Origin: Bolinopsis microptera
Taxonomy: Eukaryota > Ctenophora > Tentaculata > Lobata > Bolinopsidae
Assembly (NCBI RefSeq): GCF_026151205.1
Contig: NC_087072.1
Coordinates: 18,398,103 to 18,462,102, forward strand
Direction: 5' to 3'
DNA: 64,000 nt
Positions 58,301 to 63,509 of the stretch are shown piece by piece; positions within the stretch are counted from its first letter, which is position 1; the number at the start of each line of letters is the position of its first letter. The position numbers and the translations under genes are program-made. Under the pieces are notes generated by a model. It saw nothing but the letters and a program-made list of their open reading frames with translations, was not told where the DNA came from and made no database searches.

Positions 58301-61300
58301 AAATATTATCAAAACGTACAGTTTGCCATGATGGGTATTTCATTCTCAACATGCTCAGTAAATATAATAGAGTTTAGAGTCCAGTGCCTGTCTCACTCTC
58401 AGTAACTAACAGTACAGTAGCGTGGTAAATAATCCGTGTTAGTGATCACTTTCTGAACTGAAAATGACCAGAAATATGCGCGCTGACGTCAACAACCCAC
58501 TGCATAATAGCAATGATAATATCTAAAAGGAAGGTTCCACCTCTAGTTACAACTTATACTGTGACGTCACACGCGTGACGTCACAAGTACCGGCTGCTAC
58601 TCGAGCAGGTGCAAACAAATCGTATTTATATACCCATTCTAATGGGTCGGAGCCGACACGCTATTTTAGTACTTATGCTGGGGACGAAAGGTCGAAGATG
58701 ACCAGACGATCGCCAGACCTTCCAAACAATAGCACCAAAATTAGTGCCTGGAATATCAGTATAATTACCGGTATTTTCATGTGCCCAGGAGCCTTAAACT
58801 TGTACACCACCAGACTGTAGGCTCGAGGCAATAGTACAATCTTTTGGCCTGTTGAGCGGAGCAGATGGTATAAAAATAGGAGATTAGTCTTGACACGCGG
58901 TAGATAATGGATTGCATGCTTTTAAATACTATAATTCTTTTTATACTAGAGTCTAGAATGCTAACTATATCTTTAATGTTGCTACTTACCTTTATACATA
59001 AAAACATAGCACGAATTCTGTATCGAGGAAGTGCCCATTTCTACAAGTACAATGTTACCCATTCAACCTGTTGGGACGATATCTTACTGTTTATTGAGCT
59101 TATTTTAAAATATTGCTTCCATTTCAGAAGAGCCAGTATAACCTGGACGACGAATGGCTGGAGCTGGACCGTCTCACACAGGTATGAAACCACACGACCA
59201 GAACGGTTTGTTTGTATTGTTAGATTTGTTACTGTGACAAAAGGACATATTTGGGTTATTTCGCCATTCTTGTACCAAGGATAGATAGCTCTGTTGATTA
59301 CCTACGGTGCGAAATTCAAATTCTCTCTTAAAATTTTATTTTAAGAGTGAATTTAGTTTTACATCAAAAACATGATAAACGGATAGTCCTTCAACATTTC
59401 TCACGTCTATTGAATACCCAAACAAAATTTCGATGGGCTTATGAGTTAATATTGTTAAAAACTACTCTCCTATCGATCTGTGGTAATTACTTTGAAATGG
59501 CCGAATGATAATTATATATGATTTGCAATTAGCACACTCTAAGCTTCTAACCCTGCCAGTTCGCTTTATGGAAGTATGGATGCTTTAGATCAATAAGGAG
59601 TTAAATCAATGAATAAGGAGTAGTTGATGATAGGCAAATAATAGACACGGTGTGGTTTTTCTTGATTTCATCATACAAAATAATGTAACTATTGTAATCA
59701 TCAGTGTAGTTACATTGTTTTCGTTACAATGTAAAGATAGACTGGCGTATCTTGGCATTACTCACCATCTATCTGTCACTTGTTTGTTTTGCTTGCAGCT
59801 TGATAGCCTAAATGAGAGAAAATCCAGTTGAGCGCACCAAATACACAAACTTCTTGTCGAGAAATCACGCATTCCAAAGACGACCAGATGATTTTCTAAC
59901 TATACCACCCAATGGAAGGCCAAGGGGTGTGTCTCCGCTCTACGATCCTTGGCAACGTTTAGGCTTGGAATTGGGTTCTTGTGGCAATCTCCGGTCTCGC
60001 CAAACTAGTTTAGAGCACTATAATAGCCGAGGTCCTGAACCTTCCAATTTAGTGAAAGGTCTTAGTCTTGACTCAGTCTGTACAACTTATTCTCAGTACA
60101 AGCAGTATGCTCCGAATCCTCAGAATGCTCCTCAATCCCAGAATGACCCAAACGTCCCTTATCGGCCGTACCCCCCAAATATTCCTCATGTTTCACATCA
60201 TTACGTTTTACCCAAAGCTTTAAAGCAAACATGGAGCATTCATGACTCAACACCATCGCCCGTCAACGAAACGAGGGGTTATGATTATCATCCTTACAAT
60301 AATAATAGCAGTAACAACAGAAGAGGGCAACAGTCTGAATCCTTCGATCAGGAGCACCCTGTTAAACTAGATCTGAGTCTGGCAAGGCGACCATCTTACG
60401 AAGACTGGCCTGAAGAGGATAGGGGTAGGAACCAAAACAATAATGATTGGTTTCCTGAACCTAGGGATGCTGAACATAATTATAAGAATAAAGGCAATAA
60501 CCAGATTCCTTGGGCATCTTGCTCCTCAATTGATATACCTGAGAAAAGAGCACGACTATTCAGTGAAAATGATGATCTTAAAACCAGGATAAAGAAACTT
60601 GTTCACGGTAAAGACGCCAGATACCACCCTAGTTTACAGCACATTGATAATCCCACAAAGCACAGTCCCTCGCCCAGTCCACAAATAAAGCAATTTTCTC
60701 CTTTGCCCAATTTAGATCGTCAATATGATCAATGGAGGACCGCTCAGACCCCTAATAAACTTAGTCTAGCATGGTCCCCGCTGGAGTTCTTAGACGGCGA
60801 TCCTTTGATAGGCGCTCCGCTTACACCTCGTCAAACATCGGCTAAAAACCTGTGGGAGGAGAAAGATGTGGACTCACAGTTTCATGATTTGACCCACGTA
60901 CCCGCTAAAGTCAAAGACAGGGTATATTCGCAGAACTATCACCACAAAAACGGCAAACCATTGTTTGAGCTCAGGACTTTGAGGAGGGGAGCTAGACCGC
61001 GATTTAACAGCGATGACTTTAGGAATTCAGGGACAGGAGCTGGCGCAAGAAATCATGAGAGGCCCCTAATTTCAAATAAATCTAGAACAGCAAAACCTTC
61101 TCCCAAGCATAACATCAACAAGACACCTCCGCGATTTGACCGCACTAATAGTTTAAGGAAGGTAGTAAGGCCACGATTCTACAGCGACAACACGGGGTCA
61201 GTGGCTGATCCAGTTATCCAAGACAGGGATCACACCAGCACGGCACCCTTTAAACATACAGGAGAGGGAACCCAGCCTCGTGTTAGAATGTCACCTCACA

Positions 61301-63509: not shown

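Follow-up and report, generated by a model that had tools for sequence, protein, structure and literature searches.

Exon 21 of a FERM-domain gene in Bolinopsis microptera carries a 725-codon frame that upstream exons cannot enter through the exon's own acceptor. The best explanation, which we hold at a little under even confidence, is that this exon serves as the first coding exon of a second, FERM-less product of the gene. An internal promoter, or a trans-spliced leader, would supply the non-coding 5' segment; this leader could come from an exon in some upstream intron, from a 5' exon that uses the donor of exon 20, or from trans-splicing if that is used. The leader would be spliced to the acceptor at 59799, whose splice signals are present in the DNA, translation would begin at the ATG that stands at 59812, and exon 21 would then be joined to exons 22-25, with which it is in phase. 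The predicted product comprises 725 mostly disordered residues and a 318-residue tail, about 1,043 residues in all, and has no FERM domain. FERM transcripts would skip exon 21 without a change of phase, leaving the tail alone common to both products; a FERM transcript that takes exon 21 at 59799 would end at the TGA at 59829 and would probably be removed by nonsense-mediated decay.

If this account is true, one membrane-skeleton gene would yield two largely unrelated proteins with only the tail in common, and membrane binding would be separated from the tail's role; annotation pipelines would then probably report either an erroneous fusion or a frameshift. Our guess at a function is that the FERM-less protein acts as a tether or scaffold with the same tail partners as the FERM form.

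The exon was first singled out in a sequence-only reading, which listed three possibilities and chose none: an alternative first exon, a poison or terminal exon, and a one-base error. Here we favour the first, for which the proposed size of about 1,040 residues was right (725 + 318 = 1,043); the second is best seen as a by-product and the third is less likely, while in-phase acceptors within the exon (59833 and 60097-60226) come in addition to that list. The probabilities that we attach to the readings were weighed by judgement, not by formula. Throughout, "the window" is the whole stretch of 64,000 nucleotides that was analysed (C1:18398103-18462102), and the genome searched amounts to 264,652,675 bases in 232 contigs.

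The host gene and its large exon

The FERM gene lies on the + strand, where 25 exons were traced by their borders and phases (33903-63509). Borders were placed by hand; the start of exon 11 at 50437, which has a weak acceptor, was chosen by a two-base move to keep the frame open. The features on which the argument draws are given below, all on the + strand.

28380..28467, +, probable upstream FERM exon, 5' border not fixed; found by pattern search, donor gtaagt, phase 0 into exon 1
33903..50638, +, exons 1-11, FERM_N, FERM_M, FERM_C and the following region; borders and phases, Pfam
51847..56052, +, exons 12-19, acidic, proline-rich linker; all joins open
59128..59181, +, exon 20, 18 residues, phase-0 end; donor CAG/gtatga, 9.3 bits
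59761..59798, +, CTCAC branch-point-like site, pyrimidine tract and acceptor ttgcag; CTCAC starts 38 nt 5' of exon 21
59799..61986, +, exon 21, 2,188 nt, 3n+1; borders and phases, one copy found
59799..59831, +, frame continued from exon 20, 10 residues and then TGA (59829-59831); translation
59809..59814, +, TAA abutting ATG in the long frame; context TAA-ATG-A, T at -3
59812..61986, +, 725-codon frame, 73% P, E, S, Q, K, R, G, D, N, T and H (disorder-type)
59833..59835, +, in-phase acceptor ttgag/CGC, 1.1 bits by the matrix; 718 codons in phase with FERM
60142..60144, +, in-phase acceptor atcccag/AAT, 7.8 bits by the matrix; 615 codons in phase
62123..63509, +, exons 22-25, C-terminal tail of 318 residues; one copy found, without a Pfam family

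With exon 11 starting at 50437, exons 1-20 join into 813 stop-free residues, in which Pfam recognizes FERM_N (4e-13), FERM_M (3e-21) and FERM_C (9e-24), all above the curated cut-offs; the solved structures nearest to a 192-residue FERM piece are those of EPB41L3 (1e-61) and 4.1R (7e-60). Pfam also holds models for the FA, SAB and CTD families, which gave no match in exons 1-20 or 22-25 (E up to 0.1) or in the exon 21 frame (E up to 1). A true protein 4.1 has a FERM-adjacent region and a CTD, plus an SAB region in mammals, as the relevant part of PMC1459144 describes it. Because FA, SAB and CTD are absent from the matches, the host gene is placed, from its predicted domains, in the 4.1 superfamily but not among the true proteins 4.1. 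The FERM_N profile occurs in at least eight places in the genome, the host gene among them, and the 318 residues of exons 22-25, which match no Pfam family, find only their own four places; no relatives were confirmed in viral contigs. For exon 21 itself, a genome search for a second copy, paralogue or retrocopy returned only the exon. The COX1, STING and GFP families gave no match in the genome; STING and GFP gave none in control genomes either, and for these two the negative does not count as absence.

Elsewhere in the window lie a single-exon frame of 696 codons that belongs to the anoctamin family (25372-27462, +) and frames that by eye resemble remnants of non-LTR retrotransposon reverse transcriptase and ORF1 (14818-15723, +; 21003-21902, -; 22099-23718, +; 16859-17803, -). 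At 30688-31142 and 31571-31856 lie long microsatellites of (GA)n and (CA)n, whose extended reading frames are spurious.

Exon 21 is bounded by the acceptor ttgcag/CTT at 59799 and the donor TCT/gtgagt, and the introns on either side are both phase 0. Splice sites were scored with a matrix built from the 24 other exons of this one gene, with their hand-set borders. The acceptor at 59799 scores 6.7 bits on this scale; under leave-one-out scoring the gene's own 24 acceptors span -4.6 to 14.3 bits and nine of them score higher, and 94 of the 3,579 AG sites on the + strand of the window equal or exceed it. It is a good site, not an exceptional one. The earlier description had the acceptor in the right place and the end of the exon, given as 61987, one base late: the donor sets the last base at 61986. 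Its account of the phases stands in full—the long frame leaves in phase 0 into exon 22 (62123), exon 20 enters out of frame and meets TGA (59829-59831) after ten codons, and the join of exon 20 to exon 22 is phase 0, which makes skipping exon 21 frame-neutral. The proposed label of "dual-frame exon" would fit only the first 30 nt or so (about ten codons), not the whole exon.

The 725-codon frame is no accident. At a stop rate of 0.065 per codon, derived from the introns of this gene, the chance of 727 open codons is about 8e-22, and that of the first 110 codons being open is about 6e-4. Coding-like codon use is confined to this frame of exon 21, with a mean codon log-odds of +0.14; the two remaining frames, their stops disregarded, give -0.002 and +0.03, introns give -0.08 and the training genes +0.28; the first ten codons from 59812 reach +1.3, but are too few for placing the coding start. 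Methionine is encoded only at codons 1 and 493, the product is rich in S, P, R, N and D, and the 725 residues look mostly disordered by composition.

The same numbers bear on the reading of exon 21 as mainly a regulated poison or terminal exon that cuts the FERM protein after ten residues, with the long frame as a relic. The join of exon 20 to 59799 does bring in a TGA ten codons on, well before the later junctions (59829-59831, with the junction 61986/62123 downstream), and AATAAA occurs inside the exon at 60487, 60684, 60754 and 61075. AATAAA is nevertheless expected in A-rich sequence, and an exon that did no more than poison transcripts would not have kept 725 stop-free codons with coding-type use; as the exon's main role we consider this improbable. 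Any splicing of exon 20 to 59799 would bring truncation with it automatically, as a by-product, which does not account for 725 codons staying open.

Entry into the long frame

Entry through 59799 into the long frame meets TAA at 59809-59811, and the third frame meets TGA/TAG at once; the frame that continues from exon 20 is the only open one of the three. Because the TAA closes the long frame to upstream exons that splice to 59799, a start codon is the simplest entry into the long frame. The ways to use this frame are the ATG at 59812, a later acceptor, another base count in the 17 nt where the frame from exon 20 overlaps it (AAAA lies within), or a translational frameshift. Two other candidates were rejected. 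Rescue by a microexon or by another exon 20 donor fails, since any entry through 59799 into the long frame hits the TAA at 59809; for a short intron in the 5' part of the exon, the frame shows no interruption anywhere and 59799-59899 offers no listed donor of more than 3 bits.

The layout around 59812 would suit an alternative first coding exon. The ATG is the first of exon 21 and lies 13 nt after the acceptor, it opens 725 codons, and these run in phase 0 into exon 22; the break of frame falls among the initial 30 of the exon's 2,188 nt, just where an own start would place it. Against the ATG counts its T at -3, a weak Kozak context. A leader that reads through exon 20 also has upstream ATGs, one of them in exon 20, which tells against an own start. 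Introns 19-20 hold no donor of 7 bits or more besides exon 20's own, so a leader exon within them would need a weaker donor. The TATA-like strings of these introns carry no weight here; DNA rich in A+T is expected to contain such strings. Compared with the genome, the stretch of introns 19-20 matched its own locus only, including a 39-base inverted match inside the stretch; because this search skips very common words, a transposon-born promoter may still lie there.

One side observation concerns a transcript from the region of the TATA-like string at 58869 that uses the exon 20 donor (58907-59181 joined to 59799-59811). It would carry a 95-codon upstream frame, derived by hand, that ends in the TAA touching the ATG at 59812, which is probably a coincidence.

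How often acceptors precede start codons was gauged at 20 single-exon starts, three in the window and 17 of GPCRs (12 of 20 fetched loci). An acceptor of at least 6.7 bits lay at most 30 nt upstream of the ATG at six of the 20, versus 5.2% of 6,000 random ATGs, and the count was again six of 20 at thresholds of 6 and 8.5 bits. At 6, 6.7 and 8.5 bits, p was 0.0023, 0.0004 and <0.0001 for the 30-nt limit and 0.037, 0.006 and <0.0001 for a 60-nt limit—values that are too sharp because the set is small, the idea post hoc, and the GPCR clusters near-identical. GPCR starts alone, at 60 nt and 6 bits, gave an acceptor in four of 17 versus 14% of controls, which is not strong. An acceptor before an ATG may also join an upstream coding exon. 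Acceptor, short leader and ATG form a frequent 5' layout in this genome, and exon 21 has it with a 13-nt leader.

Two of the six acceptor-bearing starts belong to other genes of the window. The alpha/beta-hydrolase gene (6468-7727, -) and the sulfotransferase-2 gene (10076-11332, -) are each single-exon and have strong acceptors 1 nt and 30 nt, respectively, before their first ATG, perhaps for untranslated leader exons or trans-spliced leaders.

The position of the ATG was also compared with what a stray base would produce. When one-base insertions were simulated at 9,447 coding positions of the window, the exon 21 frame included, the stop preceding the downstream frame was immediately followed by an ATG in 4.1% of cases, and in 2.2% the overlap spanned no more than six codons and contained an ATG. 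An ATG anywhere in the wrong-frame overlap appeared in 36.6%, for which reason an ATG alone is weak evidence. Taken as a whole, the ATG argument for an own start is moderate.

FERM transcripts could also reach the long frame by a later acceptor, at 59833 or at 60097, 60124 or 60142, giving FERM fusions with 718 or about 615-630 codons of exon 21. All four sites are exactly in phase, and the one at 60142 (7.8 bits) outscores 59799 (6.7); those at 60097 (3.6 bits) and 60124 (3.7) are weaker, as is a further in-phase site at 60226 (2.2). Even the 1.1 bits of 59833 fall within the gene's own range, four of its 24 acceptors being lower under leave-one-out scoring. Yet 59833 lies behind several other AGs and is without a pyrimidine tract of its own, 60142 used alone would leave about 110 open codons unexplained (chance 6e-4), and 59799 has its own branch-point-like site and tract. 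We give in-phase entry at a later acceptor little credence.

The two kinds of entry might be combined in a two-way switch, in which 59799 would serve non-FERM leaders and lead to the 1,043-residue protein, while 59833 or 60142 would serve the fusion of FERM to the giant exon. Use of these second acceptors, 34 nt (59833) and 343 nt (60142) downstream of 59799, would remove both the ATG and the stop. If the switch were true, acceptor choice alone would set truncation, fusion or a free-standing tail protein; we regard it as improbable.

A programmed +1 frameshift within the 17-nt overlap would make the FERM-giant fusion from an unchanged mRNA. It would call for a +1 shift while UGA occupies the A site, the class to which antizyme and prfB belong. 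The AGU before the UGA (AAA TCC AGT TGA G) is not known as a +1 shift site and does not match UCC-UGA (antizyme) or CUU-UGA (prfB), and we find such a shift very hard to credit.

A possible extra base and the accuracy of the assembly

Exon 21 minus one base is exactly 3n between two phase-0 introns, which speaks against an own start. A model with its own start must treat the 3n+1 length as a one-in-three coincidence; a fused exon with one insertion needs no further assumptions. Exon 21 would then be an ordinary phase 0-0 giant FERM exon, the extra base being a consensus error or a frameshift allele; the FERM protein would have about 1,890 residues, and exon skipping would give a short form. 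That size, proposed earlier, is plausible, and the N-terminus of the gene is incomplete as traced. Several observations are consistent with the extra base: both flanking introns are phase 0 around an exon of 3n+1, the 17-nt overlap includes AAAA, 13 of the 24 other exons of the gene are likewise 0-0 in phase, and LDSLNER looks by eye like an extension of the leucine pattern in exon 20. The genome yielded no further copy or haplotig of exon 21 that could test the extra base.

On the other side, the error or allele would have to sit exactly in the 17-nt overlap at the 5' edge of the exon, a random indel would fall within the first 30 of 2,188 nt in only about 1.4% of cases by position alone, four As are a short run, and the rest of the gene and three other genes of the window are open (2,664 training codons). 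The assembly looks accurate in a wider sample, too. Single-exon GPCR matches lacked an internal stop in 142 of 147 scored cases (five of the 147 had one); these were the best-scored of 1,683 PF00001 candidates, a set biased to intact genes. Thirteen irregular GPCR matches at 12 loci were picked by eye, leaving out at least three more (C5:346782, C4:10145653 and C11:13139417), and a frame change appeared in one of the 13, a GPCR copy (L024 5672-6537, C5:8136942). In another of the matches, at L022, two pieces separated by 234 nt lie in different frames, which was read as an intron, and two of the 12 loci gave no match. Frame-breaking assembly errors look rare, and a real frameshift allele is possible. 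We judge the extra-base reading unlikely, but still deserving of weight; if true, it would be a useful caution on what one base, or one allele, can do to a gene in a reference genome.

Among the GPCR matches, C8:17780409-17781206 and C162:4885-5682 have equal score (91.3 bits) and equal frame length (441 aa); C162 is a small contig and may be an unpurged duplicate.

Comparison with known systems

Giant exons are known from ankyrin-B and ankyrin-G and from the long coracle isoform, where they are fused in frame to N-terminal domains. The likeness lies in an exon that is very large and looks disordered, sits in a membrane-skeleton gene and would be skipped or used by isoform. The difference is that exon 21 as sequenced is not in frame with the N-terminal part: at 2,188 nt it is 3n+1, and it brings a TGA after ten codons in place of an in-frame cassette.

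Isoforms that arise from internal promoters and go without the N-terminal domain are a known general kind. With an own start at 59812, exon 21 would resemble them in being a downstream first coding exon whose protein shares the tail only; unlike them, it would have a unique part of 725 residues in one exon and a shared part of only the last 318.

A further comparison is with 4.1R (EPB41), which belongs to the FERM superfamily and in which the start is chosen by splicing of a short AUG-bearing segment. PMC2614411 distinguishes two mRNA types that differ, through alternative splicing, by 17 nt carrying AUG1. AUG-1 is assigned to exon 2' and AUG-2 to exon 4 in PMC3166722, which also cites work in which alternative first exons of 4.1R are coordinated with splicing. 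Both 4.1R starts lie before FERM, and FERM is kept; here the start would lie behind FERM, in a frame closed to the FERM exons via 59799. The present case would shift a 4.1R-type switch to the tail of the gene and drop FERM. The two-way switch between acceptors, should it operate, would be the downstream counterpart of the exon 2' switch. In the titles and abstract openings surveyed, all from open-access literature, we found no description of a FERM gene with an out-of-frame giant exon. Taken together, the comparison suggests a gene layout that is unusual but has precedent.
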